In this document: positions 5,526 to 45,699 of the stretch, in pieces
How positions within the stretch are numbered: position 1 is the first letter of the stretch
How the letters are laid out: every line of letters begins with the position of its first letter
NCBI RefSeq assembly: GCF_008329965.1
Contig: NZ_CP036150.1
Span: 1 to 64,000 of the forward strand
Origin: Oceanispirochaeta crateris
Lineage (GTDB): Bacteria; Spirochaetota; Spirochaetia; DSM-2461
Length of the DNA stretch: 64,000 nt
Reading direction: 5' to 3'
Notes under the pieces: model-generated
Told to the model about the DNA's origin: nothing
Database searches by the model: none
What the model saw: only the letters and a program-made list of their open reading frames with translations
Program-made: the position numbers and the translations under genes

Positions 5526-5543
5526 TTTTCAAACTTGAATTAT

Positions 5544-5659: not shown

Positions 5660-5686
5660 AAAAAAGTGAAAGTCTTTTCACTTTTC
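5660..5686 (-). terminator. Hairpin overlapping the dehydrogenase stop codon
   Basis: An inverted repeat of the form GAAAAGTGAAA-AGAC-TTTCACTTTTTTC on the minus strand, running into T-rich sequence, overlaps the stop codon of the zinc dehydrogenase. It looks like a first intrinsic terminator, backed up by the GC-richer one further downstream. Stem composition is AT-rich, so efficiency is uncertain. Confidence 0.5.
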
Positions 5687-6850: not shown

Positions 6851-6908
6851 GTATTACTTCCTTAAAAGGGATTGATTTGTTCATTATCATATCCCACTGA
6901 GGACTCTG

Positions 6909-8153
6909 TCAATTATTTCCTTTTATGGCCAGCACGGCATTCTGCCCGCCGAAGCCGAAGGAGTTGGTCAGGGCTGCGGAAAATCGGAGCTCCCTGGCCT
7001 GGTTGGGAACAGTGTCCAGAGGACAATCAGGATCGGGGGTTTCCTGGTTGATGGTGGGAGGAATGATCCCATTATAAAGGCTTAAAATGGTGGCGGCTGT
7101 TTCTATTGCCCCTGCAGCGCCCAGGGTATGGCCAATCATGGACTTATTGGAGCTCACTGGAATCTTAGAACTCCTTTCGCCAAAGACGCCCTGAATGGCC
7201 CGGGATTCTGTTTTGTCATTGGCCTGAGTGGATGTTCCATGGGCGTTGATATACCCGATATCCCCGGGTGTTAAGTCCGCATCTGCAATGGCCAGCTCCA
7301 TGGCTCTACCCGACCACCTTCCGTTTTCATCAGGAGCGGCAATACTGGAGGCATCGGCTGTCATCCCAACCCCGGCCAGGCAGGCGTAAATACGGGCTCC
7401 TCGTTTTTCTGCGGCTCCTCGTTTCTCAAGAACAAGGGCGGCTGCTCCCTCGCCAATGACAAATCCGTCTCTATCCCTGTCGAAGGGGCGGCTGGCTTTT
7501 CGGGGATCTTCATTTCTGGTTGAGAGGACCCTCATGCATCCATAGGCATCCACCACCAGGGGGGTAATTGTCGACTCTGTTCCTCCGGCTATCATCACAT
7601 CCGCCTGATTCAGTCTGAGGATATGCATGGCCGAGGCTATGGAATGAATCCCTGTGGCACAGGCGGACAGGGCGGCCATGTTGGGACCGTGGAGACCCAG
7701 TTCTATGGCCACGTTTCCTGCTGCCATATTGGGAATGATTCTGGGGACTGCCAGAGGGTGTCCCTTGCCGGGACCCCGCTCGGTGAGAATAGCAAACTGT
7801 TTTTCCAATACCTCATAATCTCCCGCCGCAGATCCCATGATGCAGCCGGCTCTGACGGGATCAAAACTACTGAGATCCAGATGAGCATCCTTTACGGCTT
7901 CAAGAGAGGCACAAACCGCAATCTGTGAAAACCGTGACATTTTGCGGGCGTTCTTTTTATCCATGAAGTCAGAAGCTTTGAAGTCCTTGAGTTCACAAGC
8001 TATGGTTGTGGAAAAACCCTCCGGGGTGAATGCCTGTATAGGGGCCGCACCGGAAACTCCGGATATGAGATTCTTCCAGAAATCATCCTTGTTTAAGCCT
8101 ATGGGTGTTAACGTTCCGATACCTGTGACGACGATGTCTTCTTTGTTCTTCAT
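6909..8153 (-). CDS. fabF: Beta-ketoacyl-ACP synthase II (FabF)
   Basis: A 414-residue condensing enzyme of type II fatty-acid synthesis; it extends acyl-ACP with malonyl-ACP. The catalytic triad is visible: C165 (ALSACATGIH), H305 (NAHGTST) and H342 (IGHTLGAAGA). Length and motifs match FabF rather than FabH or FabB. The start ATG has AAGGAG about 8 nt upstream. The gene stands alone, diverging from an NPD-family flavoprotein across a 184-bp region holding two copies of a palindromic element that recurs before the acetyl-CoA carboxylase gene. No acpP or other fab gene adjoins it, so its control is probably through that shared element. Confidence 0.95.
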   Translation of the reverse strand: MKNKEDIVVTGIGTLTPIGLNKDDFWKNLISGVSGAAPIQAFTPEGFSTTIACELKDFKASDFMDKKNARKMSRFSQIAVCASLEAVKDAHLDLSSFDPVRAGCIMGSAAGDYEVLEKQFAILTERGPGKGHPLAVPRIIPNMAAGNVAIELGLHGPNMAALSACATGIHSIASAMHILRLNQADVMIAGGTESTITPLVVDAYGCMRVLSTRNEDPRKASRPFDRDRDGFVIGEGAAALVLEKRGAAEKRGARIYACLAGVGMTADASSIAAPDENGRWSGRAMELAIADADLTPGDIGYINAHGTSTQANDKTESRAIQGVFGERSSKIPVSSNKSMIGHTLGAAGAIETAATILSLYNGIIPPTINQETPDPDCPLDTVPNQARELRFSAALTNSFGFGGQNAVLAIKGNN

Positions 8154-8174
8154 GGGAGTACTCCTTCTTGTTTT

Positions 8175-8207
8175 TATATTGACATAAAAATCTAAAATGT
8201 CAATATA
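8175..8207. promoter_or_regulatory. Operator O1: perfect palindrome between fabF and the NPD flavoprotein
   Basis: TATATTGACAT (8175-8185), 11-bp spacer, ATGTCAATATA (8197-8207). The perfect symmetry extends to 13-bp arms (8173-8185 and 8197-8209). On each strand it contains TTGACA and TATAAA separated by 19 bp, so two divergent promoter-like sequences are superimposed on the palindrome. The same element with identical spacing is found at 42022-42054. On the fabF side the predicted transcript start would fall very close to the ribosome-binding site. Confidence 0.75.
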
Positions 8208-8226
8208 AACCTAGTGTATATGGACT

Positions 8227-8259
8227 ATTTATGACATATCTGTTTAAACTGTCAAAATA
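8227..8259. promoter_or_regulatory. Operator O2: second copy of the fabF palindromic element
   Basis: TGACA (8232-8236) and TGTCA (8250-8254) are separated by 13 bp exactly as in O1, with flanking arms ATTTATGACAT and CTGTCAAAATA. Its centre is 52 bp from the centre of O1, close to five helical turns. On the minus strand it reads TTGACA-18 bp-TAAATA, which could be the fabF promoter with a more normal leader length. The arms are less perfect than in O1. Confidence 0.55.
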
Positions 8260-8337
8260 ACGTTTACACTTTTACAAACATCCCGTACTATTCTGGTATT
8301 GAATTTAACAAAAGATCATAAGGATAAGGAGTCAGAT

Positions 8338-9774
8338 ATGGACCATCCAAAACTAATACAAGGCGGCATGGGTATTGCCGTTTCTAACTGGATTCTCGCT
8401 AGAGAGGTCGCCTTACGGGGACAGTTGGGAGTCATTTCAGGAACAGCCCTGGATGGTGTTCTTGCCAGACGCCTTCAAGATGGTGATCCCGGGGGCCATA
8501 TGCGACGAGCTCTGAAAGCCTTTCCCTTTCAGGAGGCGGCTAAGCGCATTCTGGACAAATACTTTGTTTCCGGAGGAACCGGGCGGAAGTATGCCCAGGT
8601 ACCCCTATTTAGTATTAACAACAATGATCGTCTGAATGAACTGACAGTGGCGGCCAATTTTACAGAAACATACCTTGCCAAAGAGGGGCATAACGGCCCC
8701 GTTGGAGTCAATTATCTAGCTAAAGTTCAGCTACCCACTCTTTCTTCAATCTACGGTGCTCTTCTGGCCGGAATTGATTATGTCATCGTCGGAGCCGGAA
8801 TCCCTTTGGAAATCCCCGGGATACTGAAACGTTTGTCCGAGAATCAGGATGCTTCGCTAAGACTCAGTGTTGAAGAGGCTGATAAATCAGACAGTTTTTT
8901 TTCTCACTTTGACCCGGCGGCTCTCTTCGGAACAAAGCTGCCGCCGTTGAAGCTTCCCCGTTTTCTTCCCATTGTATCTTCAAATTTTCTGGCGACCATG
9001 ATGGTGAAAAAGGCCTCTGGTCCCATTGATGGTCTCATCATCGAGAATCATGAGGCTGGAGGGCATAATGCTCCTCCCAGGGGAAAAATGATGCTGGATG
9101 AGGCGGGGGAACCCGTTTACGGTGATAGAGATGCAGTGGATACTGAAAAAATCAAGGAGTTGGGACTTCCCTTCTGGCTGGCGGGATCTTTTGGCACTCC
9201 TAGTGGATTGAAGGCCGCCTTGAAGGCGGGTGCCGCAGGCATACAAGCCGGGTCGGCCTTTGCCCTGTGCAGGGACTCTGGTATTTTTCCGGAACTGAGA
9301 AAAAAAATTATCGATGTTGTCAAAAATGGGGATAGCTCAGTTTTCACAGATGCTGAAGCTTCTCCCACGGGTTTTCCATTTAAAGTCTTGAAACTCAAGG
9401 ATACTATTGCAGAAAAAAGAGTCTTTGAAATGAGAAAGAAGATTTGTAACCTGGGATACCTGAGGCAGGCATATAAAAAAGAAGATGGAACCCTTGCTTA
9501 CCGCTGCTCTGCAGAAAACAAAGAGGCTTTTATCAAGAAAGGGGGAGATCCACAGGAAGCGGAACAGGGGAAGTGCTGCTTGTGCAACGCTCTGTTTGCT
9601 ACTGTTGGTATGCCTTCTGTCTATGCCGACGGAAGCATTGAAAAACCACTGGTAACACTGGGGTCCCATTTGGAAACATTGAAAGATCTGGTTCTAAGAA
9701 AAATTGACTTTTCCGCTGGAGATGTCATCGATTATATTCTAAAGGGACAAATGGAACCGGAGCCTCAAGTCTGA
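8338..9774 (+). CDS. NPD-family flavoprotein (nitronate monooxygenase / FabK-like)
   Basis: A 478-residue FMN TIM-barrel protein related to 2-nitropropane dioxygenase, FabK-type enoyl-ACP reductases and PfaD. Visible features: an N-terminal QGGMGIAVSNW, a GVNYLAKVQLPTL strand, IIENHEAGGHNAPP around the catalytic-His region, and GAAGIQAGSAFALC in the phosphate-binding part. A C-terminal extension carries several cysteines (CRCSAE-like and GKCCLCNAL). The ATG at 8338 is preceded by AAGGAG at 7 nt; a TTG 39 bp earlier is in frame but has no such site. It diverges from fabF through shared palindromes, so a role as enoyl reductase or in lipid metabolism is more likely than nitronate detoxification, though unproven. 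Confidence 0.82.
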   Translation: MDHPKLIQGGMGIAVSNWILAREVALRGQLGVISGTALDGVLARRLQDGDPGGHMRRALKAFPFQEAAKRILDKYFVSGGTGRKYAQVPLFSINNNDRLNELTVAANFTETYLAKEGHNGPVGVNYLAKVQLPTLSSIYGALLAGIDYVIVGAGIPLEIPGILKRLSENQDASLRLSVEEADKSDSFFSHFDPAALFGTKLPPLKLPRFLPIVSSNFLATMMVKKASGPIDGLIIENHEAGGHNAPPRGKMMLDEAGEPVYGDRDAVDTEKIKELGLPFWLAGSFGTPSGLKAALKAGAAGIQAGSAFALCRDSGIFPELRKKIIDVVKNGDSSVFTDAEASPTGFPFKVLKLKDTIAEKRVFEMRKKICNLGYLRQAYKKEDGTLAYRCSAENKEAFIKKGGDPQEAEQGKCCLCNALFATVGMPSVYADGSIEKPLVTLGSHLETLKDLVLRKIDFSAGDVIDYILKGQMEPEPQV

Positions 9775-9799
9775 AGAAGAAACTCCGGTTCTCATTTTT
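9754..9799 (+). terminator. Intrinsic terminator of the NPD flavoprotein gene
   Basis: Arms GAACCGGAG (9754-9762) and CTCCGGTTC (9783-9791) form a 9-bp perfect stem, followed by TCATTTTTC. The 5' arm lies in the last codons of the gene, so the terminator overlaps the coding end. It separates this gene from the convergent KDG kinase. Confidence 0.75.
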
Positions 9800-9812
9800 C
9801 TTTAGTAAGAGC

Positions 9813-10910
9813 TTAGCGGTCCACTCTGGCGCCGCCGCCTCCGACAATTTTTTCAACTTCGGCCAGTGAGACCATGGTTGTGTCTCCGGGGGTGGTCATG
9901 GCCAGGGCTCCGTGAGCCGCACCATAGTTGACTGCCTTATCGGCATCATTAAAGGTCAGAAATCCATAGATCAGGCCGGATGCGAAACTATCTCCTCCAC
10001 CCACTCTGTCCATGATTTCAAGATTGGGTCTGTGCTGAGCCTCAAAGATCTCTCCATCATACCAGGATATGGCACCCCAGTCGTTGACGGTTGCAGATTT
10101 CACCCCTCTTAGGGTGGTGGCGGTGGCCTTAAAGTTGGGGAATGCCGCTGTGGCTTTTTTGATCATCTTCTTGAAGCTTTCTGTTTCCAGGTCAGTGAGA
10201 TTCTCATCAGTTCCTTCTACTTCAAATCCCAAACAGGCGGTGAAATCTTCTTCATTACCAATCATGACATCCACATACTGGGCTATCTCCTTGTTGACTT
10301 CCTGGGCCTTCGCCTCACCACCGATGGCCTTCCAGAGGGAGGGGCGGTAGTTCAGATCATAGGATATGATTGTTCCATATTTCTTGGCAGCCTTCATGGC
10401 TTCGATGACCACAGCGGGTGTGGTTTCCGACAGGGCTGCAAAAATGCCTCCTGTATGAAACCATTGGACGCCGCTTGAAAAAATACCTTCCCAGTCGATG
10501 TCACCTTCTTTCAATTGGGATACGGCAGTATTTCCTCTGTCGGAGCAACCAACGGCTCCTCTTATACCAAATCCGCGTTCTGTGAAGTTCAGTCCGTTCC
10601 GGGTGTCCCGGCCACAGCCGTCGTACTTGTCCCATTTTATATGAGATGTATCCACGCCACCCTGGAGGATTAAGTCTTCAACGAGTCTTCCCACGGGATT
10701 GTCTGCCAGAGCTGTGACAACGGCGGCTCTCTTAGCAAAACAGCGTCTGAGTCCGCGGGCTACATTGTATTCTCCACCTCCTTCCCAGGCTGTAAACTGT
10801 CTGGATGTGTGAATTCTGCCTTCTCCCGGATCAAGTCGAAGCATGACCTCTCCTAAGGAAACTATATCGTATTTGCACTCTGAGGCTGGTTTTATATTAA
10901 GTTTTGACAT
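9813..10910 (-). CDS. kdgK: 2-dehydro-3-deoxygluconokinase (KDG kinase), PfkB family
   Basis: A 365-residue PfkB kinase converting 2-keto-3-deoxygluconate to its 6-phosphate with ATP. The C-terminal signature DRVGGGDSFASGLIYGF holds the catalytic Asp; the N-terminus has VSLGEVMLRLDPGEG, typical of KDG kinases. It is the second gene of a leftward pair, 60 bp after the KDPG aldolase, which uses its product. ATG with AAGGAG 8 nt upstream. It is slightly longer than the 310-340 residues usual for KdgK. The pair points to breakdown of uronates, pectin or alginate. The assignment rests mainly on the adjacent aldolase. Confidence 0.88.
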   Translation of the reverse strand: MSKLNIKPASECKYDIVSLGEVMLRLDPGEGRIHTSRQFTAWEGGGEYNVARGLRRCFAKRAAVVTALADNPVGRLVEDLILQGGVDTSHIKWDKYDGCGRDTRNGLNFTERGFGIRGAVGCSDRGNTAVSQLKEGDIDWEGIFSSGVQWFHTGGIFAALSETTPAVVIEAMKAAKKYGTIISYDLNYRPSLWKAIGGEAKAQEVNKEIAQYVDVMIGNEEDFTACLGFEVEGTDENLTDLETESFKKMIKKATAAFPNFKATATTLRGVKSATVNDWGAISWYDGEIFEAQHRPNLEIMDRVGGGDSFASGLIYGFLTFNDADKAVNYGAAHGALAMTTPGDTTMVSLAEVEKIVGGGGARVDR

Positions 10911-29086: not shown

Positions 29087-31555
29087 TCAGATAAACATGT
29101 TGGTCTGGGAATCATCTGCGGCGCCCAGGAAGGAGGCTACTCCCCCAATTTCTACACCGTCTATGAGTTCCTCTTCGGCTACTCCCATCACGTCCATGGA
29201 CATCTGGCAAGCCACAAGACGGATGCCGCTTTTCAGGGCTGTTTCCATCATCTGCTCAACACTGTCTACACCCAGAGCCTTCATTCTCATTCTCATCATT
29301 CTAGCACCCATTCCGCCCATATTGATCTTGGATAGACCCATCTTTCGGCTGCTGGAGGGGAGCATCATGGCGAACATCTTACCCATAAAGTCTTTTTTGA
29401 CCCGTGGTGCCTTCGCTTTTTTAAGGAATGAAAGACCCCAAAAAGTGAAGAACAGGGTGACTTCTTTCCCAGCAGATATGGCTCCGTTGGCAATGACCAT
29501 AGCCGCCAACGCCTTGTCCAGATCGTCAGAAAAGAGGATCAGGCTGGTTCCTTTTTGAGGACCACCGCCCATTCTGGAAGGAGTGGGGGCTCCTCCTTTC
29601 TTGAGGACTGCAATGACCTTAGGACCCTTCTGGTCTACAGAGACCACACTGTTTCCTGTCATTTTAGCCCAAGCATAGACGTCCCTGGCAAAACCGGGAT
29701 CTGTGGCAGTTTCCTGGATCATCTCTCCGGGTTTAAGGGCTTCCATTTCTTCTTTGAGTTTCAATACAGGACCGGGACACTGGAGGCCGCAGGCATCCAC
29801 TTCAATGGTCTTAATGTCGCCAATGACTGTATGAATATGGGGATCACTCTGATAAATGTTGTCATCATGACCGATAAAATCTTTCTCGAAGATATCTTCA
29901 TTGCTTTGCTGCTGGGTGGATAGGCTGTAAGTTTTCATACCCCCCGACAGGTTATAGACATCTTCCAAGCCGTTTTGCCGGAGTATTCTTTCAGCCATAT
30001 AGGCTCTTTTTCCCACACCGCAAAAGAGAATGACCTTCTTGTCTTTGGGGATCTCTGCGATTCTGTTGCGGATTTGTGGCAAAGGAATATTCACGGCACC
30101 ATCCAGTGTTTCGATTCCATATTCATCCTCTGTTCTTACATCAATGAGAATACGTTCTTCCCTGGGGATGTCGTTCATCTCATTCCAGTGGAGGTGGTGA
30201 GAAGAACCGTTGAGGATGTTTTCTGCAACAAATCCCGCTATGTTGACAGGATCCTTGGCAGATGAAAAGGGTGGTGCATAGGCATGTTCTATCTCCTGGA
30301 GATCATCGATTGTACCCGCATGACCCAGGATGACCGCAAAGAGGTCAATCCTCTTATCGACTCCTGAATAGCCCACGATCTGAGCTCCCAAAAGCTGCCT
30401 TTCCTTGTTGAATATAATCTTTATTGTCATGGGATCGGCATCAGGATAATACCCTGCATGGGAAGTGGCATGGATAATCAATCTCTGGTACTCCCTGTCC
30501 ATTCTCAGAAGCTGCTTTTCCGAGAGCCCTGTAGAGGCGACTGTCAGGTCAAATACCTTGGCAATGCCAGTGGCTATGGTCCCTCTGTAACTTCTTTTAT
30601 TCCCCATTATGATATTGTCAGCGACCATCCGGCCCTGTTTATTAGCTGGACCTGCCAGGGGGACTCTTAAAGGGTCTCCTGTGATGGGATTCGGATACTC
30701 TGTTGCATCTCCCAGGGCATAGATATCCTTGTCGTTGGTCATGAGGTGGCTGTCAATTTTAATACCCCCAGTGGTGCCTATTTCAAGGCCGGATTCTACA
30801 GCCAGCTTGACATCTGGTTTCACTCCGATTGAGAGGATAACCAGATCCGCTTCGATGACCCGGCTGCTCTGAAGGGCGATATGAACACTGTCTCCTTTAT
30901 CTGTAAAGGAGGAGACACCATCTTTCAGGTAGAACTCAACGCCCTTGACCTTGAGGTGCTGGTGAACTTCGGCAGCCATCTCATAGTCTAGGATGTTCAT
31001 TACCTGCTCAGCCGCTTCTACAATGGTGACAAAGATTCCCAGCTGATGGAGGTTCTCGGCCATTTCCAATCCGATGAATCCTGCTCCAATGATGACCGCT
31101 CTGCGGGGCTTGTTTGCATCCACAAAGGTTTTGATATGATCCGTATCAGGAACGTTTCTCAGTGTAAAAATTTTATCTGAATCGATTCCGGGAATCCCTG
31201 GTCTCAAGGGCTCTGCGCCAGGAGAAAGTACCAGTTTATCATAGGGATCTTCAAAGACTTCATCTGTATCCAGGTTTCTCACAGAGAGGGTTTTCCTGTC
31301 TCTATTGATAGAGATAACATCGTGTTTGACCTTCACATCTACATTCAGAAGTTCGGTAAAACTCTCAGGCGTTTGAACAAAGAGTCTGTCTCTTTCTGCT
31401 ATGGTCCCTCCAATATAGTAGGGAAGTCCGCAGTTGGCATAACTGATGTAGGCTCCTCTTTCATAAATCCTGATCTCCGCTGATTCATCCAGCCGCCTGA
31501 GTCTGGCCGCGGTGGTGGCCCCACCGGCAACACCTCCGATAATCAATACTTTCAT
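29087..31555 (-). CDS. CoA-disulfide/persulfide reductase fused to rhodanese, TusA and DsrE domains
   Basis: An 822-residue four-domain sulfur enzyme. Residues 1-445: FAD/NAD(P) pyridine nucleotide-disulfide reductase with IIGGVAGGATTAARLRR (4-20), the single redox cysteine in SYANCGLPYYIGG (about 43) and a second Rossmann motif IIGAGFIGLEMAENL (about 152). About 455-555: rhodanese with active-site Cys in ILFCGVGKRAY (about 510). About 580-655: TusA with ACGLQCPGP (about 586). About 670-822: DsrE-like with VACQMSMDVMG (about 778). These relay persulfide sulfur or reduce CoA and protein persulfides. ATG with AGGAGA upstream. Similar fusions are known in anaerobes and bacilli. The gene appears monocistronic. 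Confidence 0.92.
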   Translation of the reverse strand: MKVLIIGGVAGGATTAARLRRLDESAEIRIYERGAYISYANCGLPYYIGGTIAERDRLFVQTPESFTELLNVDVKVKHDVISINRDRKTLSVRNLDTDEVFEDPYDKLVLSPGAEPLRPGIPGIDSDKIFTLRNVPDTDHIKTFVDANKPRRAVIIGAGFIGLEMAENLHQLGIFVTIVEAAEQVMNILDYEMAAEVHQHLKVKGVEFYLKDGVSSFTDKGDSVHIALQSSRVIEADLVILSIGVKPDVKLAVESGLEIGTTGGIKIDSHLMTNDKDIYALGDATEYPNPITGDPLRVPLAGPANKQGRMVADNIIMGNKRSYRGTIATGIAKVFDLTVASTGLSEKQLLRMDREYQRLIIHATSHAGYYPDADPMTIKIIFNKERQLLGAQIVGYSGVDKRIDLFAVILGHAGTIDDLQEIEHAYAPPFSSAKDPVNIAGFVAENILNGSSHHLHWNEMNDIPREERILIDVRTEDEYGIETLDGAVNIPLPQIRNRIAEIPKDKKVILFCGVGKRAYMAERILRQNGLEDVYNLSGGMKTYSLSTQQQSNEDIFEKDFIGHDDNIYQSDPHIHTVIGDIKTIEVDACGLQCPGPVLKLKEEMEALKPGEMIQETATDPGFARDVYAWAKMTGNSVVSVDQKGPKVIAVLKKGGAPTPSRMGGGPQKGTSLILFSDDLDKALAAMVIANGAISAGKEVTLFFTFWGLSFLKKAKAPRVKKDFMGKMFAMMLPSSSRKMGLSKINMGGMGARMMRMRMKALGVDSVEQMMETALKSGIRLVACQMSMDVMGVAEEELIDGVEIGGVASFLGAADDSQTNMFI

Positions 31556-33173: not shown

Positions 33174-34256
33174 TCATGCGTGAGAAAAAGCAGCCTGTAC
33201 TTCTAATGTTTCAATCGTCAGAACCTTGCCTGGATTTTCAATACCGTACTGGAAAATTTTATCGGTGATGCTGTCTGAGATCTTCTCTGGGACAAGTGCT
33301 ACTACGCGCTCCCATGCCGCAGTATTACCGCTCTTTTCTCCCTGTGCCAGATGTTGAACCCTTGAAAGAGTCGCCCCTTTTGCTCCTGCATTCATAGCAC
33401 AATCGGCTATGTTTCCAGCAGAGCCTTCAGGACAGTACACTGTAATTTCCTTCTGTTTGCGAGTAAACCTGACACGACCTTTTTTGACTTCCAGACTTCT
33501 TTTCCGCCAGCCAGTATCTCCTTTAAGCTCGTCAATGGCTGCAATCATCTGATCTATACTGGCAGAATGAGCCTGTCTACCAATGACCATTTTATTGTCA
33601 AGATGTGCCGAACATACAGGTGTTGTATACACAAAACCGCCTCCGGGCCGGTCTATATCACCATGTTCAATGAGTATTTTCAGAATATTGTCTGAATCGT
33701 ACCGGGAGACCACTAAGTGCACAATCTCTTTTTGCGGGGGAATTGTAATACGCAGAAGTCCCAGAGAATCTCTTAGTCCAGTTCCTTCTCCCAGAGACAC
33801 TACGGGCACCCCTAGACCATAGTCTAAGGCGATAGCAGCAAGCTGGTCTCCTGCTTTTGGGAGTGACAAAATTGCAGTTATCTGGGACATTTGATGTTTA
33901 CAGGCTTTAAACTCTTCGGCAGGATTCTCTTCATTCCTGCCTTCATAAACAGAAATATCCTGCATCAGCAAACTGCCGTGTCCCGGGATATCAAGACCTA
34001 CTTTCTCATATATTTCTGCAGCCAGGGCCTCTGCTTTACTGCTCTCTGTGGTGATGTAGTATCGGTCTCCTGGCCATTCAACAGGGATCTTTTTTTGGCC
34101 AGGGAAGGAGAGCTTTCTCTTCCTATCTTGTCTCCGGACAGTACGACAGGACTCAAAGAATACTGAGAGAGATGGTTTTTCGGATAGAAGGTTTTGCATC
34201 GTTTCTCTCAGGCTAAAATGTAGGCTGCAGGTAATGCGTGTATTATTTTGATTCAT
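33174..34256 (-). CDS. Protein of three tandem PII-like units, partner of DUF1538 membrane protein
   Basis: A 360-residue cytoplasmic protein. Three segments each look like one PII-type ferredoxin-fold unit: about 6-104 ending near GLDIPGHG (87-94), about 125-214 with LVVSRYDSDNILKILIEHGD then DIDRPGGG (200-207), and about 269-353 with EITVYCPEGSAGNI then GIENPGK (338-344). Since PII works as a trimer, this may be a trimer in one chain. The start ATG at 34256 lies inside the end of the DUF1538 gene (14-bp overlap) and has AGGAGAG 7 nt upstream, indicating coupled translation. PII-like genes next to DUF1538 genes are seen elsewhere; function is unknown. The three-repeat reading is my inference from the sequence. 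Confidence 0.75.
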   Translation of the reverse strand: MNQNNTRITCSLHFSLRETMQNLLSEKPSLSVFFESCRTVRRQDRKRKLSFPGQKKIPVEWPGDRYYITTESSKAEALAAEIYEKVGLDIPGHGSLLMQDISVYEGRNEENPAEEFKACKHQMSQITAILSLPKAGDQLAAIALDYGLGVPVVSLGEGTGLRDSLGLLRITIPPQKEIVHLVVSRYDSDNILKILIEHGDIDRPGGGFVYTTPVCSAHLDNKMVIGRQAHSASIDQMIAAIDELKGDTGWRKRSLEVKKGRVRFTRKQKEITVYCPEGSAGNIADCAMNAGAKGATLSRVQHLAQGEKSGNTAAWERVVALVPEKISDSITDKIFQYGIENPGKVLTIETLEVQAAFSHA

Positions 34257-36348
34257 TTGTACTCTCCTGTTCAACCGCGGCCATTGATTTATTACGTTTG
34301 AGTGAAAGCATAAAACCATAGATCTGGACCGATAGGATAGGAAATACTGAGGCTAAAGCAAGGATGCCAAATCCGTCAGCCTTTCCCATTGCTCCGCCTA
34401 TTCCTAGCCCGAGAGAGAGGACTAGAGGTACTGTTATAGGTCCAGTGGTGACTCCGCCGCTGTCCCAGGCAATTCCTGTAAATTCTTTACTACTGAATAT
34501 TGTCAGTAGAATAAGAAGGAGATAAGCAGGGATGAGAAGCCAGGCCATGGGTATATTGTATATGATTCTCAAAACACCAATCATCAGCCCCAGGCCTACT
34601 CCAATAGAAACAGCTCTGATAACTCCTGTTTTTGAGACTGTTCCGACTGTAATTTCTTCAACATTTTTTCCAAGAGCATTTAGGGCAGGCTCTGCCAAGG
34701 TTGAACCATAACCAAGGCCAAATGCAAAGAGGAGGACAAAGATCATTCCCATTTTGGTCATTCTTCCTGTAAAAAGAATGGGAGTTCTTCTTACATGGGT
34801 ATATACACCGCTCTGTTTGTTGTATTGTCTGGAAATAAAGGGGACATGCTGTATTTCTCCAGATGCATTCATAAAAGCAAATATTTCAGACTTATTTCCA
34901 TCAGTGTCTACAGCCTTCTGAATCAGTGAAAGATCAAAATTGGGTATCTCAATGATCTTTTCATTTTCCTGGGCTTCATAAACTCGTGGGAGCTGCTGAC
35001 CCACTGTATCACCCAAGGGGACAAGGCCATATCTGAGCCCTGTTGTCAGTAGAATCATACCCAGTATTGTGATGACTATACCAAGGATAAATTCGTCGAT
35101 GTGGCGGGGATACTCTCTGAGAATCAGCAGAACTACTGCCAAAAGTATCCCTATTAGAGGAATGATGGCTCGTATAGCCATGGTTGTCTCATTTTTAATA
35201 ACTTCGGATATAGTGGTTGGTATCTGTACTGCATCGGGGACTATATTTTCCGTGCTTATTCCTAAGACCTTTTTTTCACTCTCAGACGCCCGTAATGCCC
35301 ACCATATGTCCGGACTCATTTCAGAGAGAATCTGGTTTTTATCGCCATCGGATAGCTCTTTGAGGGCGGCTATATACTCCTCTTCATTCCCGTAGAAAGC
35401 GGCCCTGGCTTCCTGGGTTCCCTTCTCAAAGGCAAAGGATTCAAGGGCCTTCTCTCCCTCTAGCATCTTAACAGCATCTGTTCTGTTCTCTATTGAGAAA
35501 AACTCTGCTTCCTCCATTTCTGAAGGCAATGTAAAAAAAAGAGCTAATGAGAAGATCATGACTCCCAAAATTGGAAGGAGTGAAGCCATCGCAATACTTC
35601 CAAAGCCTCCGGTAGATCCCTGCCTATCCCCTGAGGCTCTGGATACTCCGATACCCAGGGCCAGGACAAGAGGTACTGTGACAGGTCCTGTAGTGACCGC
35701 TCCAGTGTCCCAGGCCAGGCCTATAACAGCACGAAGCTGAGGGTTGAGTGAAAATAGAAGTGTTAGTGCCAGAAGGATCGGCACGGATATTAAAATGAAA
35801 GGTTTTAGGGATATGCCCTTATGATACCTGTACAGGCTGAGAGCAACTGCCAGAGCGACTCCTCCTCCCACGGAAGCTATGAATCCTTCCTGATAAATGC
35901 CAAGAAGAGAATAGAGCAATGGATTTTCCCAAGGAGTGACTCCGCGCCCTGCAGAACGCAAGGTGCTTATTGCCGGTTCTGCCAGAGTTGATATAAATCC
36001 CACGATGAGGCCGAAGAATATTATCTGATAGAGTCTGACTTTGACAGGAAGCTTGAGTCCCACATATTCACCCAGGGGCATAAGCCCGAGAGCGAGGCCC
36101 TCCATAAAGAAGGCGAGTCCCAATACTACCATGATTATCCCGAGGAGATTCTGGAGACTGAATGCTTCGGGTGATCTGACAACCAGGAGTTGAAATACAA
36201 GGAGATACGCCACTATAAAAGCCAAAGCTCTGGCTTGCTCGGATATCTTTCTACCAATATAGTTGCTGATCATTGAAAATGCCGCCCGGGGAGGCATTTT
36301 AATGACAGGTCGTGACGCAGCTTTTTCTTTTTTATACCCTTTTACCAT
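34243..36348 (-). CDS. Double DUF1538 integral membrane protein, putative transporter
   Basis: A 701-residue inner-membrane protein with two DUF1538 halves. Shared motifs: PLGEYVG (about 91-97) and PLGDTVG; STLAEPA at 120-126 and again near 549; AWDTGAVTTGPVTVPLVL (212-229) and near 626 AWDSGGVTTGPITVPLVL. The repetition is typical of transporters built from duplicated units. A charged soluble loop (about 275-390) joins the halves, and another insertion of about 70 residues precedes the second STLAEPA. The start ATG has only a distant AAGGTG; an inner ATG at 36297 has none. Its end overlaps the PII-like gene. The substrate is unknown. Confidence 0.85.
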   Translation of the reverse strand: MVKGYKKEKAASRPVIKMPPRAAFSMISNYIGRKISEQARALAFIVAYLLVFQLLVVRSPEAFSLQNLLGIIMVVLGLAFFMEGLALGLMPLGEYVGLKLPVKVRLYQIIFFGLIVGFISTLAEPAISTLRSAGRGVTPWENPLLYSLLGIYQEGFIASVGGGVALAVALSLYRYHKGISLKPFILISVPILLALTLLFSLNPQLRAVIGLAWDTGAVTTGPVTVPLVLALGIGVSRASGDRQGSTGGFGSIAMASLLPILGVMIFSLALFFTLPSEMEEAEFFSIENRTDAVKMLEGEKALESFAFEKGTQEARAAFYGNEEEYIAALKELSDGDKNQILSEMSPDIWWALRASESEKKVLGISTENIVPDAVQIPTTISEVIKNETTMAIRAIIPLIGILLAVVLLILREYPRHIDEFILGIVITILGMILLTTGLRYGLVPLGDTVGQQLPRVYEAQENEKIIEIPNFDLSLIQKAVDTDGNKSEIFAFMNASGEIQHVPFISRQYNKQSGVYTHVRRTPILFTGRMTKMGMIFVLLFAFGLGYGSTLAEPALNALGKNVEEITVGTVSKTGVIRAVSIGVGLGLMIGVLRIIYNIPMAWLLIPAYLLLILLTIFSSKEFTGIAWDSGGVTTGPITVPLVLSLGLGIGGAMGKADGFGILALASVFPILSVQIYGFMLSLKRNKSMAAVEQESTNESK

Positions 36349-36451: not shown

Positions 36452-39400
36452 TCAGAGCTTCATGCCCTCTTCTATTGTTTGAATCAGGTAGGGCCTGATG
36501 TCTTTCGGGTTGACAATATCGTCGATTGAACCCACCTCTTTTGCTCTGTTTACCGAATGAATCTGGTCAAACTTTTGTCCTAAAGCGGTTTGCTTCTCAT
36601 TGTAGATAGAACTGTAGAGTTCATCATACTCTTTCTGTGAACAGTTCTTCTTGTTCAATTGTTCGACGCATTCGGCTATTCTAGGATCAGAGAATGTCTC
36701 TTTTTGTACTTCCCTTGGAAAGACAACTGCCGCGGCGGGAGCTCCACCCAAAACGGAAGCAAAGGAGCCTTCCAGAGCGGCTGCCCTGAGGTTGGGATTC
36801 AGCGCTTTGGAGAAGACCACGTAGGCCCCGCCGTGATACCGTGCCACCACTAGGAAGGCAATGGGTCCCTTGAAGTTGACGATGGCGCGTCCGATTTCCG
36901 CTCCGTATTCCAGCTGGAGGTTGCGGAGGCTCTCGGGGGAACCGTCAAAACCTGAAAGATTGGCCAGAATCATTAAAGGCATCCTTCCTGAAAAAGCATT
37001 AATTCCACGGGCGACCTTTCTGGAGGACTGGGGGAAGAGAGTACCACCTGTCCAGTTTTCTGGTCCATCATGTGGAATGGCCCCCATTCTGTTTAGTGGG
37101 CGGCTTTCTATGCCGATCATTCCTGTGGCGATACCACCCACTCTGGTTTCCCAGATGATCGAAGTATCCGCATCTTTCATCCTCTGCCACCGCTCAAAAT
37201 ATCCGGCATCTCGGTCTATGATAGACTCCATGACCTGACGGATATCAAAGGGCTTTTTCCTTTCCGGATTCTTCTCCATGCTGAATATATCACCGATGGT
37301 CTTGAATCCCTGATCCAGAAAGTCATTGTATTTGTCCTTGGTAATATCCCTGTCTCTGGGATCATCCGTTTTTGTCCGGGGGGGATGCTTTGTTCCGGCT
37401 ATTTTATACGTGTAGGCATAGTGGTTTAAGAGGATGCTGTAGGCTTCTGCCAAGTTGCGGGCTCTGATCTGAGATTGCCCATTGGGACCCATAATCTTCT
37501 CAGCTCCTCCAATATCCAGATTGGTTTCTCCCGATACTGAACCGGAAAAATCCAAAGCCCTTTTTCCCGTGAGGAGCATAGAGGCCTCATCTGTCATAAT
37601 CAGAAGTCCCCGGGTGTGCATCAGCATCGTTGCTTCGGCATTCCAGTAGGATTGGGCTCCAACATTGACCCCCGGAACGATGATATTGATTTCGCCTCCA
37701 TTTTGGGTAAAATTGATGATCCGTTTGAGGGCCGATGCCGTCCAGTCCAGGTTTTCTGTGCCGGTTTTCATATCTATTTTGGCACCCGAAGAGATGGGAA
37801 GCCATTCTACGGGAATATCCTTTTCTTCGGCCAGGTCCAGGGCGGCTATGACCCTCCTGCATTCCGGTTCTGACAGAGAACCAAGGTCCTTTGTGGGATC
37901 AGAGAGGATGATGACCCTTTCGAGGGTTGTTGTTTGGTCTATATGAGGGTGACGGATCAGTCCGAAAATCATGTTGGACTCATTTTCGCCATAGTTCCGG
38001 TCTTTCACTGACACAGGACTCTGGGTTCCGTCACTGTTGATTTTGATATCATACTCTTCAAAGTCACCCCGGGGAAATCCCTTGTACAGGGGGAGTCCCG
38101 CATAGGTGATCATCTTGATAAACTCATAGGGATAAACCATGTTCCGCTGACGGGCCCGCACAACCTTGCTTGTGTAGAGGTCCTGGGTGAGCAGATTGTT
38201 GGATTGTGGTTTTCGAGAACGCATGGTGAACTGGTCCTGGGACATGTTGGACATGATGAGTTCCAGTTCCCTGATGGCGTCTTCGCTCCAACGTTTTCGT
38301 CGGGTGTAAACCACTATCTTTTCAAGGCCTAAATCATGGGTCATGGGCAGGATCTTCTGTCCGTATTCCTGCATTTGTATTAGCTTCAGGTTTTGGAGTG
38401 AGCGGTTATGAAGGATGATCCTGTTCCATTGGAGGCGGAATTTATACCGGGCCTGGACAGATCTCATGGCATAGACGCAGTCCATAAAGACCGACTCAAA
38501 CATGACCATCCGGCTAATGGAAGCATTTGACCATTCCGGTTTCGGGTCTGAAAAACTGCCCAGGGCAAAGAGCCTCTTATCCTTCGGATTGCTTTTTTCT
38601 GTCGATTCTAAGAGGGTCACCGTATCCGACTTATAGAGGATCTTATGATCAAAATTCTGCAGACGAATGACTCTCAGTTCCCTGAATTCCAGGGGATTGA
38701 ATCCTCTGTAGAGCTTTTGTTCAACCCATCCCTCTGCTGTGATTTCATAGGAGCGGTAGAATTTGCTTTCTGTGGGACAGAACCATCCCAGACGGAAAGC
38801 CAGGACTCTTTCATCTGTTAGCCAGGGAGCCTTATTCAGATAGTCTGTATCGGCGGGTTTCTGTGAAATAATCAGACAGTTTATCTTGATTCCACTGTGT
38901 TTCCCCAGATCGGCAATGTCCCTGATCAAGCTGTCACAAAGGTCTGAATCTCTGATGACTGTGGTTATATTCTTATGAACGATATCCAGATCCAGATTTC
39001 GGCTCTCGCAGTAGTATCCCCAGTATGTGCCGGATTTCAGGAGTTTGCCTGTGATAAACTCTCTATCTCTGTTCATCCGCCTGCCCAGGGCCTCCATACC
39101 CAAGGCTCTTCCCGTGTCATCATCGCTCAGGGCCAGTTCGCAGAGTCTATCCATGATCTCCGCTGAGGAGTCGATGATCGTCTGCATGTCTTCTGAAATC
39201 TTACTCTTAGACGATCCGTTTTCTGTGAGTTCTCTGAGCATGCTTTCAATTGCCTGACTCTGACGTTCTCTCATTTGTGATACTGTCAATGCATCGATGA
39301 TCTTGTATCGGGCAAAGAGGGCCGCATCGGCGGTGGAAAGGTCTTTGGTTTGGGTGAGTTCGATAATCTGACTGATCAGTACGGACAATCGGCTACGGTC

Positions 39401-41947
39401 CTGGGAGGTCAGCTCCATGTTCTGAAGGGAGAAGAAGATCCTTTTCAAAACTTCCAGTTTCTTGCTTAACCTTCCATGGGACTGAAATATCCTATAAAGG
39501 GCCCGGTTCTTCTCATCCTGCGTGGCTTCTTCCTTGTGGTAAAAACCGGTACAGGTCTCAAGGTCATCAACAAATATTTGGGGGAGACCCTTCTTCTTTT
39601 CCTCATGTCTGAGGAAGTAATGTGTCAACATTTCCTGGTAGCTGACGGGCCGGGCATAGCTGTCTGAATTGATTTCTATGGTTGTAAAGAGCTTTTCCAC
39701 CGCACAGAAGCTGGCCATGATTCTGAGAACCTCTGAAACCACTTTGGGACTCTCTCCAGGATTTTCATCCAGGTGGTTGAGTATCTCCTGAAAGTTTCCT
39801 TTGGCGGACTCCCCATAGTCATATCCTCTAAATAGTGCGTCCAGTTCTGCCAATATCCTCTTAGTTTTATCCTCTACTGTTTCGCTTTCTAGAGGAAAGT
39901 TTACCGGTTCAGAACCTGAGACCTCGTTCTGCTGTTCCTGATCCTTGATATCCAAAAGAACCAGAGGCTGTCCCGCCGTAATCTGGGCTCCTCCTGAGAT
40001 GCAGATCTCACTGACGATTCCATCTGCGGGAGATTCTACCAGCATTTCCATCTTCATGGCTTCCAGGACAACCAGGACATCCCCTTTTTTTACTTTGTCT
40101 CCTGTTTTTGCCTGTATGGAAAGGACTATGGCTGGAGAGGGAGACTTGACATATCCTCCGGATTCACTTTCAAGCATCACAGGAAACCCATCCACTTCGC
40201 ATTGAAGCATGTCCGCTCTGTTCACCATCAGGATGTTGTAACGTTTTTCCTGAAATATCAGGAGAGATTCCTGATTCCCTTTCATATAGGTGCAAATCAG
40301 ATCCTCTCCCTCATAGTTAATATGATAGGAGCTATTTGCCACACAGCGAACCTGAAATTTATAGCTGTTGCCGTTGTTAGACAGGATTATTTCATATCCC
40401 TTGGCGTCTGAGAGGGTCCTGGGCCTGCCGATACGGTTGATTTCTTCTTCAAAGTTCATATAATCCGTGCGGAATTGGGTAAGATAGAGTTCTACCGCAG
40501 CTGCCAGTAAGGCGGCTCTTGTTTTTTCCACGTGAACTTGAGCCGTTCTTGTTTCCAGAAGTTCCTCAACAAAACCAGTGTGGATTCCTCCCTGTTTTAT
40601 TTGGGGCAGACTCAGGAGTTCCAGGAGAAAGGCTCTGTTTGTTGTTCCATTATGTATATTGATTTTTAGTGAATTCAGGGCCTGCTCCAGCCGAGCCAGG
40701 GCTTCTGGACGGGTGGGGCCATGGGCAATGATTTTGGCAACCATGGAATCAAAGTCAGATGGAATTTCACTTCCTTCTTCTATTCCGGAATCCACGCGGA
40801 TACCAGGGCCGGCGGGAGCCCTGAACAGCTTCACATACCCCGGTGCAGGGCTGAAGTCTCTGTCTGGGTCTTCAGCATTGAGCCGGACTTCCGCAACGGC
40901 TCCGTTGGGTTTTCTGTCCCGAAGGTCAACCTTTAATCCCCTGGCAACGTCTATCTGTCCTTTCACAAGATCGACGCTGTAGAGAGTCTCTGTGATAGGG
41001 TGTTCTACCTGAAGCCGGGTGTTGACTTCCATGAAGTAGTACTCATTTCGTTTCAAGTCAAAGAGGTATTCTACTGTACCGGCTCCCACATATTCTGCTG
41101 CCGTAATCAGTCTTTCCGCGGCTTTTTCCATGTCTTTTAACATGGTTTCGGGGAGTCCTACAGGTGGAGTTTCTTCGATGATTTTCTGGTTTTTACGTTG
41201 GGCTGAGCAGTCTCTAACACCAAAAGTGTTGACTGTTCCATGGCTGTCGGCGAGGCATTGAACTTCCAAATGACGCCCTTTTTCTACAAGAGCCTCGATG
41301 AAGACGATGTCATTGCCTGTGATCCGGAGGGTTTCTTCCTGTGCCGATTTGAACTGGGTAGCCAGCTCTTCCGGGGTTCTGACAAAACGGATTCCCCGGC
41401 CGCCGCCTGCATTTGAAGCCTTTACAATGACGGGATAACCGATCTTCTGAGAAATCTTCTCCGCATCAGCCAGGTCTTTGACGGCTTTCCGACTCCAGGG
41501 AAGGATGGGAACATCCGCCTTTTCAGCCAGGTCTTTGGCCTGGATTTTATCACCCAAAAGGGCCATGGCTTCACTTCCCGGACCCAGAAAGGACAGGCCG
41601 AGGGCTTCTATTTTTTCTATAAAGGGGGCATCTTCTGAGACGAATCCCCAGCCGACCCAAAGGGCGTTACATTTCATTTTTTGTATACCCTGAATCATCA
41701 GTTCATGATCAAGATAGGGTGATTTCTGTTTGCCCGGATATTCGGCTAAGTCTGACAACAGAAGAACATCATCTGCCATTTTGACAAAGGGAGCATCCAT
41801 TTCCGCTTCTATATAGAAAGCGACTGTCTTTAAATCAGTTCCATGGAGGCTGTTATACTCTTTGACAGCTCTTATAAAACGCAGGGCTGCCTCACCTCTG
41901 TTAATGATTCCGATTCGGGCATTTTCTTGTAGGATTACCTTCTGCAT
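36452..41947 (-). CDS. Single-chain multidomain acetyl-CoA carboxylase (eukaryote-like architecture)
   Basis: A 1831-residue enzyme making malonyl-CoA for fatty-acid synthesis. Biotin carboxylase is at 1-460, with the ATP-grasp loop SNAGGGRGIRF near 176 and EVNTRLQVEHP near 306. The biotin carrier follows, with Lys632 in EAMKMEM. Residues about 700-1250 form a poorly recognised central region. The carboxyltransferase is about 1270-1831, with SSGAKI near 1384 and, in its second half, GGIATGMIGIESR and PLMILANLSGFDG. Most bacteria use four separate subunits; this order (BC, BCCP, central, CT) is that of eukaryotic cytosolic ACC, which is about 2200-2300 residues. ATG with AAGGATGG 6 nt upstream. 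Its promoter region carries the palindrome shared with fabF. Confidence 0.93.
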   Translation of the reverse strand: MQKVILQENARIGIINRGEAALRFIRAVKEYNSLHGTDLKTVAFYIEAEMDAPFVKMADDVLLLSDLAEYPGKQKSPYLDHELMIQGIQKMKCNALWVGWGFVSEDAPFIEKIEALGLSFLGPGSEAMALLGDKIQAKDLAEKADVPILPWSRKAVKDLADAEKISQKIGYPVIVKASNAGGGRGIRFVRTPEELATQFKSAQEETLRITGNDIVFIEALVEKGRHLEVQCLADSHGTVNTFGVRDCSAQRKNQKIIEETPPVGLPETMLKDMEKAAERLITAAEYVGAGTVEYLFDLKRNEYYFMEVNTRLQVEHPITETLYSVDLVKGQIDVARGLKVDLRDRKPNGAVAEVRLNAEDPDRDFSPAPGYVKLFRAPAGPGIRVDSGIEEGSEIPSDFDSMVAKIIAHGPTRPEALARLEQALNSLKINIHNGTTNRAFLLELLSLPQIKQGGIHTGFVEELLETRTAQVHVEKTRAALLAAAVELYLTQFRTDYMNFEEEINRIGRPRTLSDAKGYEIILSNNGNSYKFQVRCVANSSYHINYEGEDLICTYMKGNQESLLIFQEKRYNILMVNRADMLQCEVDGFPVMLESESGGYVKSPSPAIVLSIQAKTGDKVKKGDVLVVLEAMKMEMLVESPADGIVSEICISGGAQITAGQPLVLLDIKDQEQQNEVSGSEPVNFPLESETVEDKTKRILAELDALFRGYDYGESAKGNFQEILNHLDENPGESPKVVSEVLRIMASFCAVEKLFTTIEINSDSYARPVSYQEMLTHYFLRHEEKKKGLPQIFVDDLETCTGFYHKEEATQDEKNRALYRIFQSHGRLSKKLEVLKRIFFSLQNMELTSQDRSRLSVLISQIIELTQTKDLSTADAALFARYKIIDALTVSQMRERQSQAIESMLRELTENGSSKSKISEDMQTIIDSSAEIMDRLCELALSDDDTGRALGMEALGRRMNRDREFITGKLLKSGTYWGYYCESRNLDLDIVHKNITTVIRDSDLCDSLIRDIADLGKHSGIKINCLIISQKPADTDYLNKAPWLTDERVLAFRLGWFCPTESKFYRSYEITAEGWVEQKLYRGFNPLEFRELRVIRLQNFDHKILYKSDTVTLLESTEKSNPKDKRLFALGSFSDPKPEWSNASISRMVMFESVFMDCVYAMRSVQARYKFRLQWNRIILHNRSLQNLKLIQMQEYGQKILPMTHDLGLEKIVVYTRRKRWSEDAIRELELIMSNMSQDQFTMRSRKPQSNNLLTQDLYTSKVVRARQRNMVYPYEFIKMITYAGLPLYKGFPRGDFEEYDIKINSDGTQSPVSVKDRNYGENESNMIFGLIRHPHIDQTTTLERVIILSDPTKDLGSLSEPECRRVIAALDLAEEKDIPVEWLPISSGAKIDMKTGTENLDWTASALKRIINFTQNGGEINIIVPGVNVGAQSYWNAEATMLMHTRGLLIMTDEASMLLTGKRALDFSGSVSGETNLDIGGAEKIMGPNGQSQIRARNLAEAYSILLNHYAYTYKIAGTKHPPRTKTDDPRDRDITKDKYNDFLDQGFKTIGDIFSMEKNPERKKPFDIRQVMESIIDRDAGYFERWQRMKDADTSIIWETRVGGIATGMIGIESRPLNRMGAIPHDGPENWTGGTLFPQSSRKVARGINAFSGRMPLMILANLSGFDGSPESLRNLQLEYGAEIGRAIVNFKGPIAFLVVARYHGGAYVVFSKALNPNLRAAALEGSFASVLGGAPAAAVVFPREVQKETFSDPRIAECVEQLNKKNCSQKEYDELYSSIYNEKQTALGQKFDQIHSVNRAKEVGSIDDIVNPKDIRPYLIQTIEEGMKL

Positions 41948-43960: not shown

Positions 43961-44302
43961 CTAACCAATGGCGTCCTGACCTCTTTCTCCGGTTCTGATA
44001 CGGACGCACTCCTTTAACTCGGTGACAAAGATCTTTCCATCCCCGATGTTACCCGTCCGCGCTCCCTTTATAATGGCATCGATGGTAGGTTCTAAAAACT
44101 CTTGGTTGACGGCAATTTCTATCTGGAGTTTGTTTCTGAGAACGATTTCAGAATGAACACCTCTAAAAGACTCATCATATCCTTTCTGCTGGCCGCATCC
44201 CTTGGCTGAAGTCACTGTCATTTTATGAACATCAGCTTCAAATAGAGCCTTTTTAACATCTTCAAATTTTTGCGGTTGAACCAAAGCGGTAATTATAAAC
44301 AT
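43961..44302 (-). CDS. glnK: PII signal protein (GlnK/GlnB) paired with AmtB
   Basis: A 113-residue PII protein that senses ATP/ADP and 2-oxoglutarate and gates AmtB. The T-loop region is [19 protein letters not shown], and the C-terminal [12 protein letters not shown] is the conserved PII signature. The uridylylated Tyr51 of E. coli is Ser here and Tyr46 is Phe, so control by GlnD-type uridylylation is not possible at the usual site. It follows amtB by 12 bp, the classic amtB-glnK operon in reversed gene order relative to E. coli glnK-amtB. Only one canonical PII gene is seen in the window. Confidence 0.93.
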
Positions 44303-44314: not shown

Positions 44315-45643
44315 TTATTCTATTATCTGGAATCCCGTATATGATTCCAATCCGTGTTCTCCAATATCCAGGCCAAGATTTTCTTCATCCTTGGACACCC
44401 GGAGGCCTATGGTCAGATCTATAACCTTGAAAATCGTTCCCATTGTGACCAGGACGAAGGAAATGATGGCGATGATGCCCAAAAGTTGAATTCCAAGTTG
44501 GGAAAATCCACCTCCATACAGCAGACCATCTGAGGGGAGGCCCAAGGCTGATTTTCCAAAGATACCAATGGAGATCGTTCCCCATATCCCGTTCACTCCA
44601 TGGACTGGAAACGCACCAACAGGGTCATCAATCCTGATTTTATCAAGTCCGATAGACGCTAGAACGACAATTATCCCTCCAATGGCTCCAATCACGATGG
44701 CTGCCCAGGGATCTATGAAAGCACAGGGTGCGGTCACGGCCACCAACCCCGCCAAGGCTCCATTGAGTGCCATGGAAAGGTCAGGTTTCCCTGAAACCAT
44801 CCAAATGGTGATCATCGCGGTGATTCCACCAGCAGCGGCGGCAAGGTTGGTATTGATGGCAATTCTGGCTATGAGATTTCCATCGCCCACAGAGAGTGTA
44901 GACCCCGGGTTAAATCCAAACCAGCCAAACCAGAGGATGAATACACCCAATGAAGCCAGGGGAATGTTGTGACCGGCAATCATTTTGATGGTTCCGTCGG
45001 GTCTGTACTTTCCCATGCGGGGTTTGAGAAGGATTGTTCCTATCAGGGCGGCAACACCACCGGTTGTATGGACAACTCCAGACCCAGCAAAGTCGTTGAA
45101 ACCGATGGATGCCAGCCAACCGCCTCCCCAGACCCAATGGCCGATAACGGGATAGATGAAGGCTGAAATTAGGAACGAGTAGATAAGGTAGGCCTGAAAT
45201 TTCATCCTCTCAGCCATTCCTCCGGCAACAATTGTCGCCGCGGCACCACAAAAGGCTGCCTGAAATAGCCAGAAGGCAAAAAGAGGAACATCCGCCGCAC
45301 TCTCCGCTCCTATGAGGAACCAGCCACTGAGTCCCAGGAATCCGTTCCCCTTTCCAAACATAAGGGCATAGCCAAAGACGAAGAATCCCAGAGAAGCCAT
45401 ACAAAAATCCAAAAAGTTCTTGGTCAGAATATTCGTTGTATTCTTGGCTCTGATAAAACCTGCTTCTACCATTCCGAAACCGGCCTGCATGAAAAAGACC
45501 ATGAAAGCAGCCATTAAAACCCAGAAGGTATCCAGTCCGGCTATGACTTCACTCAGGTCATCACCGTCTGCCCAAATTCCAGAGAGGGGCATGAGCAGAA
45601 GGAGGGCCGTAAGACCTCCTTTTTTGAAGGATAATTTGTTCAT
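44315..45643 (-). CDS. amtB: Ammonium transporter (AmtB)
   Basis: A 442-residue inner-membrane ammonium channel with a signal-peptide-like N-terminus (ending near IWADG) and 11 membrane segments. Motifs: FWLFQAAFCGAAATIVAGGMAER, VHTTGG with the first pore His, GWFGFNPGS, and FPVHGVNGIWG with the second pore His. The C-terminal tail is the PII-binding region. The ATG at 45643 gives the usual N-terminus; an in-frame start 45 bp upstream overlaps the predicted transcript start. GGAG lies about 12 nt upstream. It is followed by glnK. A sigma-54-like promoter precedes it. Confidence 0.95.
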   Translation of the reverse strand: MNKLSFKKGGLTALLLLMPLSGIWADGDDLSEVIAGLDTFWVLMAAFMVFFMQAGFGMVEAGFIRAKNTTNILTKNFLDFCMASLGFFVFGYALMFGKGNGFLGLSGWFLIGAESAADVPLFAFWLFQAAFCGAAATIVAGGMAERMKFQAYLIYSFLISAFIYPVIGHWVWGGGWLASIGFNDFAGSGVVHTTGGVAALIGTILLKPRMGKYRPDGTIKMIAGHNIPLASLGVFILWFGWFGFNPGSTLSVGDGNLIARIAINTNLAAAAGGITAMITIWMVSGKPDLSMALNGALAGLVAVTAPCAFIDPWAAIVIGAIGGIIVVLASIGLDKIRIDDPVGAFPVHGVNGIWGTISIGIFGKSALGLPSDGLLYGGGFSQLGIQLLGIIAIISFVLVTMGTIFKVIDLTIGLRVSKDEENLGLDIGEHGLESYTGFQIIE

Positions 45644-45683
45644 ATTTATTATGTACTCCAATTGATTAAGTTGAAAATTAGTA

Positions 45684-45699
45684 AGCAATTGTTGTACCT
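45684..45699 (-). promoter_or_regulatory. Sigma-54-type promoter of amtB-glnK
   Basis: Minus-strand AGGTACAACAATTGCT matches the -24/-12 consensus TGGCACGN4TTGCW at the invariant GG and GC with the correct 10-bp interval, and also at A, C and TTGCT. Transcription would start near 45674, 31 bp before the amtB ATG. Nitrogen control through sigma-54 fits the operon. No NtrC-type enhancer site was recognised upstream. Confidence 0.65.

Follow-up and report, generated by a model that had tools for sequence, protein, structure and literature searches.

The 64,000-nucleotide window analyzed here (contig NZ_CP036150.1, positions 1 to 64,000), from the 4.01 Mb genome of the spirochaete Oceanispirochaeta crateris, carries a pair of overlapping minus-strand genes for a membrane protein and a putative sensor. 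The first gene (34243..36348) encodes a 701-residue DUF1538 protein, identified by Pfam, NCBIfam and AlphaFold2, in which a UmpA-like and a UmpB-like half are fused. The second (33174..34256) encodes a 360-residue partner made of three PII-like units, as seen by AlphaFold2, PII-family profile matches and VIA-align. Our preferred reading, held with moderate confidence, is that the DUF1538 protein exchanges cations for H+ and is controlled from the cytoplasmic side by its partner, which would be a PII-like sensor forming a pseudo-trimer within one chain and having one dominant, conserved site. The pair is a variant of the known pairing of PII proteins with transporters. No paper linking DUF1538 with PII was found in the open-access literature (subscription papers lay outside the scope), and the link is partly present in automatic annotation: some partners are already labelled 'P-II family nitrogen regulator' beside DUF1538, for instance in Vescimonas fastidiosa. 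The loci annotated in this way share the operon layout and have one or two units, not three.

The two genes are intimately joined. They overlap by 14 nucleotides (34243..34256), the partner's ATG (34254-34256, minus strand) lying 14 nucleotides inside the end of the DUF1538 gene at 34243, as the first-pass annotation of the sequence had noticed. A Shine-Dalgarno motif, AGGAGAG (34262..34268, minus strand), stands within the DUF1538 gene 5 nucleotides upstream of this ATG. The mechanical open reading frame of the partner is 381 residues long; the 360-residue start was chosen because homologs start there and because of the placement of the Shine-Dalgarno motif. The overlap suggests translational coupling.

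The coupling to DUF1538 that the annotation proposed is conserved and reaches many phyla. Among 393 genomes of the phylum, DUF1538 occurs in 145 and a match to the partner in 109, and a scan of 84,980 species genomes added 79 loci, from Spirochaetota, Bacteroidota, Verrucomicrobiota, Pseudomonadota, Gemmatimonadota, Bdellovibrionota, Chlorobiota, Campylobacterota and others. In 154 systems, the order of Marinospirillum included, the sequence extended far enough downstream for the neighbourhood to be assessed. One or more PII-like genes adjoin DUF1538 in 151 of them (149 called by script, and L177 and L231 by inspection); L041, L044 and L061 are the only systems in which no PII-like neighbour was found, and they form a comparison group for the sensor's contribution.

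Four layouts recur. In the first, a single PII-like unit and a gene with a CBS domain come after split umpA-umpB genes or a short fused DUF1538 gene, the CBS gene being present in 17 of 18 such loci and beside no other layout class; the split genes resemble those of Halomonas and precede a P-II-like gene. In the remaining three, a fused DUF1538 gene is followed by two separate single-unit PII-like genes, by one two-unit gene, or, as here, by one three-unit gene. Partner layout changes 9 times on the transporter tree, some deep joins of which rest on long branches, versus 77.3 times with shuffled labels, and none of 200 shuffles gave a value as low; within the clade that has three-unit partners, the two systems scored as two-unit (L112 and L065) are contigs ending mid-locus. 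The layouts follow the transporter tree, which argues that sensor and transporter are inherited together. Some loci combine classes. L216 (G492:C31:145000-157000) carries at 4142-9103 a tandem of PII-like, umpA, umpB, PII-like, CBS, fused DUF1538, PII-like and CBS genes. In L079 (G329:C78:3000-15000), two transporter classes adjoin: at 3866-8573, a three-unit partner and two DUF1538 genes, one long and one of the short type, stand in a row. In L065 (G172:C158), two adjacent DUF1538-PII operons at 3631-9908 are transcribed away from each other, and their transporters belong to different clades.

These data bear on a different role for the partner, namely that it acts on an enzyme or a transcription factor and that the operon merely couples expression. 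PII proteins do have soluble targets too, but the adjacency in 151 of 154 systems and a layout inherited with the transporter point to the transporter itself, and no relative of the pair's neighbours in the window (carboxylase, amidohydrolase, Amt and GlnK) recurs beside related pairs. We regard action elsewhere as improbable.

The partner is built of three complete ferredoxin-like units in one chain. AlphaFold2, run with 24 sequences, predicts three beta-alpha-beta-beta-alpha-beta units, with a predicted local distance difference test (pLDDT) of 86.7 and a predicted template modelling score (pTM) of 0.85. Unit 1 spans residues 2-105 (33942..34253), unit 2 residues 123-214 (33615..33890) and unit 3 residues 268-353 (33198..33455), all on the minus strand. 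On its own, the protein scores below the threshold of the Pfam P-II family (PF00543; 13.6 bits versus 25), so ordinary annotation would overlook it. The family was matched individually by 10 of 24 partner homologs, relatives above the cut-off include those at L234 (38.3 bits) and L125 (45.5 bits), and a profile of the 24-member partner family matches PII structures with an E value of 1.5e-4. In VIA-align, unit 1 is matched by PII proteins and unit 3 by SbtB, PstA and PII-like proteins, with Z of about 6 and a root-mean-square deviation of about 2 Å; PII matches that run across both of these units were given no weight on packing, which alignment ranges by themselves do not reveal. The fold of unit 2 is assigned from secondary structure and profile homology, and hhalign (99.94%) equates this unit with the first of the separate PII-like genes found in other bacteria. 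The three units are mutually related (hhalign 97-99%). Fold prediction and profile comparison thus bear out the earlier proposal of three PII-like units in one chain: the units are homologous and share a PII-like fold. That the coupling or the three units could be an artefact of chance motif matches is an idea to which we give practically no weight; although the single-sequence Pfam match is sub-threshold and the third PG turn is unconserved, it is refuted by the family profile, the fold prediction and about 150 distinct loci.

Site conservation in the partner was scored over 65 three-unit homologs. The first-pass annotation had each unit ending in a PG-type turn. Two of these turns are conserved, GLDIPGHG in unit 1 (G92 in 91% and G94 in 97%, giving a GxG turn at 92-94) and DIDRPGGG in unit 2 (P204 in 97%, G205 in 89%, G207 in 100%), but GIENPGK in unit 3 is not. 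On this alignment, the third turn is a chance match, though unit 3 itself is real. Conservation is not evenly shared, at 0.33, 0.52 and 0.37 for units 1, 2 and 3, respectively. Conserved residues cluster in unit 2, with the motifs GxGxGxRD (156-163), PxKE (174-177) and LDxPGxGF (201-208). They also include A232, Q236, D242, W250 and R251 of the helical linker that joins unit 2 to unit 3 (33495..33563, minus strand), where they form a cluster too. Unit 1 retains R38 in addition to the GxG turn, and unit 3 retains GAxG at 291-294. The pattern points to one dominant site, formed by unit 2 and the linker, and to two degenerate sites. Of the three non-identical sites proposed earlier, the non-identity of the units stands; three equivalent PG sites do not, conservation being concentrated in unit 2 and the linker.

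How the units pack is a separate matter. The pTM of 0.85 suggests a defined mutual arrangement of the three units within the chain, most likely as one pseudo-trimer. Each unit could instead trimerise with its counterparts in other chains, giving a three-layer stack of nine units, or the open chain could serve as a scaffold. Stand-alone PII proteins trimerise between chains, and the two-unit class must do so as well; against this, the isolated chain has a high pTM, and the divergence in conservation between the units is a better fit to distinct roles round one ring. We consider assembly between chains or an open scaffold unlikely.

The transporter is itself duplicated, in agreement with the first-pass annotation. 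Pfam PF07556 matches it twice (E 2.2e-111; 370.7 bits versus a gathering cut-off of 22.6), in a UmpA-like first half (35545..36216, minus strand) and a UmpB-like second half (34312..35154, minus strand). Two motifs are each present twice, STLAEPA (residues 121-127 and 550-556) and AWDxGxVTTGP (residues 212-222 and 627-637). NCBIfam UmpA matches residues 33-268 (1.3e-65) and UmpB residues 535-684 (4.3e-52), both short of the equivalog cut-offs (NF041627, 221 versus 490 bits; NF041628, 177 versus 500 bits). By these profile scores, the protein is a DUF1538 relative and not a UmpAB equivalog. Across 147 homologs, the only polar residues conserved in more than 80% are E124, R174, D214, E553 and D629, that is, one glutamate and one aspartate per half plus one arginine, the pattern expected for a cation/H+ site. 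E124 (codon 35977..35979) and E553 (34690..34692) belong to the AEP motifs of halves 1 and 2, and D214 (35707..35709), present in 147 of 147, and D629 (34462..34464) to the WD motifs, all on the minus strand. The four acids are retained in all layout classes, umpA-umpB included.

The AlphaFold2 model of the 701-residue chain (pLDDT 91.7, pTM 0.90) places E124 in an interhelical break and D214 just ahead of a helix, positions that in the model resemble the usual ion sites. Each half has about seven helices, as predicted for UmpA and UmpB. Between the halves lies an acidic linker domain of several short helices (residues 272-379; 35212..35535, minus strand; 10 K/R versus 23 D/E), and the second half contains a beta-strand insert (residues 460-522; 34783..34971, minus strand). 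Because of the seven or so helices per half, the positively charged N-terminus and the acidic linker, the two halves are probably inverted relative to each other, with the linker domain and the beta insert presumably outside the cytoplasm. Fold searches gave no convincing match in the PDB (Foldseek best E 4e-3, TM 0.13; VIA best Z 5.6); they used the entire 701-residue chain, so the null result does not equal a new fold.

The function of DUF1538 had been described in the first-pass annotation as not established, which the literature contradicts: UmpA and UmpB of Halomonas zhaodongensis, both DUF1538 proteins, work together as a heterodimeric Na+(Li+, K+)/H+ antiporter (PMC5484666). The family is also listed among pH-linked families beside Mrp, Trk and Kdp proteins in a study of pH adaptation (PMC13255231). 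An alternative keeps the pair as it is and changes the cargo, the DUF1538 protein moving another substrate, such as bicarbonate or another anion with Na+, and the partner sensing carbon status like SbtB. PII-like pairs with Na+/bicarbonate transport do exist (SbtA-SbtB), SbtB and PstA are similar to unit 3 in fold (Z about 5.8, root-mean-square deviation about 2), and the DUF1538 protein falls below the UmpA/UmpB cut-offs and matches no solved transporter fold. The sole tested member is nevertheless a cation/H+ antiporter with conserved acids (PMC5484666), the four acids persist in all classes, and the listing with Mrp, Trk and Kdp argues in the same direction. We judge a different substrate to be rather unlikely.

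The antiporter reading can be set out as follows. The DUF1538 protein would be a secondary transporter in which UmpA and UmpB types are fused, and would most likely exchange monovalent cations for H+; its two homologous and oppositely oriented halves would each contribute an invariant glutamate and an invariant aspartate to the cation/proton site. The partner would be a PII-like signalling protein with three subunits in one chain, binding a small cytoplasmic effector mainly at the site of unit 2 and the unit 2-3 linker. By analogy with GlnK-AmtB and SbtB-SbtA, it would be expected to bind the transporter from the cytoplasm and gate it, blocking or releasing transport; in short, the partner is probably an on-off switch for the transporter. 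A pseudo-trimer made from one chain, its faces unequal, would suit a non-trimeric target of the UmpAB type. Gene coupling, domain content, conservation and the correlated evolution of layouts are shown by the present data, and antiport and heterodimer were shown by others for UmpAB; the substrate of this family member, the direct contact, the ligand, the sign of regulation and the pseudo-trimer packing are all points that we infer. Our best guess for the effector is an adenine nucleotide, because PII-like modules occur in nearly all layouts and CBS modules in one class, and both often bind adenine nucleotides. Cyclic di-adenosine monophosphate (c-di-AMP) was rejected as a general ligand, its cyclase missing from 11 of 16 host genomes; the cyclase (DAC) domain is present in the O. 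crateris genome, where c-di-AMP may be the ligand.

Four observations weigh against this scheme. First, in unit 2 the canonical B-loop lysine that contacts adenosine triphosphate (ATP), in GDGKIF, is replaced by phenylalanine (PGxGF, 91% F), so ATP binding is not to be assumed; units 1 and 3 have no conserved lysine equivalent to that of GDGK in the three-unit homologs. Judged by its residues, with the B-loop lysine absent and a score below the Pfam cut-off, the partner is not a canonical GlnK. Second, one chain of a two-unit partner is too short of units to make a trimer, and packing may vary by class. Third, the DUF1538 protein lies below the UmpA and UmpB cut-offs, and its substrate may differ. 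Fourth, UmpAB was active in Escherichia coli with no partner gene reported (PMC5484666), which suggests that the partner is dispensable for basal activity.

The pair can be placed beside several known systems. UmpAB (PMC5484666) shares with it the Pfam family, two homologous halves and the conserved acids, and split genes of the UmpAB type precede a P-II-like gene. Unlike in UmpAB, the halves here are fused, the 701-residue chain also holding a linker domain and a beta insert, and the partner is a three-unit chain, whereas UmpAB-type loci have one P-II-like and one CBS protein. GlnK-AmtB likewise couples a transporter gene to a PII gene, with an expected cytoplasmic block and release; AmtB, however, is unrelated to DUF1538, and its homotrimer matches the PII trimer, whereas UmpAB is a heterodimer. 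In contrast to GlnK, the partner here is one chain with degenerate ligand residues. SbtB is a PII-like regulator of a secondary transporter that responds to adenine nucleotides, and the fold of unit 3 resembles it; as differences, SbtA is trimeric and carries bicarbonate, and SbtB is a separate single-unit protein. PstA/DarA, a c-di-AMP-binding PII-like protein, matches the fold of unit 3 (Z 5.9, root-mean-square deviation 2.0) but differs in having no known transporter partner.

Within the O. crateris lineage, the pair is patchily distributed. Neither gene occurs in any of 25 relatives from the order, of which five belong to the same genus, and the pair is probably a transferred module; either transfer or loss on several occasions is likely. 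On the tree, the closest transporters are those of other spirochaete families, Bacteroidia and Verrucomicrobia. Base composition gave no sign of recent acquisition, the guanine-plus-cytosine content of the two genes (0.456 and 0.452) matching that of the window (0.455), and a plasmid search with the partner gave no match.

Among the neighbours, GlnK (43961-44302) and Amt (44315-45688) lie 7.6-9.7 kb from the pair, separated from it by a carboxylase gene and opposite-strand genes. The first-pass annotation had drawn a functional parallel from this nearness, which fell away: no Amt or GlnK lies near 139 related DUF1538 loci (1.29 Mb), and we rejected their proximity as a functional hint. Relatives of the neighbouring carboxylase and amidohydrolase are likewise absent near those 139 loci. 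The carboxylase (36452-41947, minus strand, upstream of the pair on the same strand) is a single chain of 1831 residues with biotin carboxylase, biotinyl and carboxyltransferase domains, and is not a conserved neighbour of DUF1538-PII pairs. Also in the window, at 29087-31555 (minus strand), is an 822-residue fusion protein, its pyridine nucleotide-disulphide oxidoreductase joined to rhodanese, TusA and DsrE-like domains. Elsewhere in the host genome (G000) are two clear GlnB/GlnK genes and further weak P-II-like genes at C1:2858587-2858856, 2932969-2933277 and 2412257-2412538.

PII proteins directly gate AmtB, SbtA and NrtABCD, and known gating of this type covers a few trimeric targets (AmtB and SbtA) together with the ATP-binding cassette nitrate and urea systems; a 2023 review remarks that the use of PII seems limited to transporters able to work as trimers (PMC10710835). 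DUF1538 is a large transporter family with PII-like units almost throughout, yet its tested member is a heterodimer. It is conceivable, at somewhat less than an even chance in our estimate, that a single-chain PII pseudo-trimer, freed of three-fold symmetry, regulates a non-trimeric transporter one to one, and that the transport fold may be unsolved. The layouts, with one unit (plus CBS), two or three units, separate or fused, would form a natural series from homotrimer to asymmetric single chain, and the published UmpAB assay may have studied an antiporter without its regulators. The one-to-one arrangement, if true, would break the reported trimer rule for PII-controlled transporters and define a widespread family of nucleotide-gated cation/H+ antiporters, and through the pair the exchange of monovalent cations for H+ would be switched directly by metabolism.

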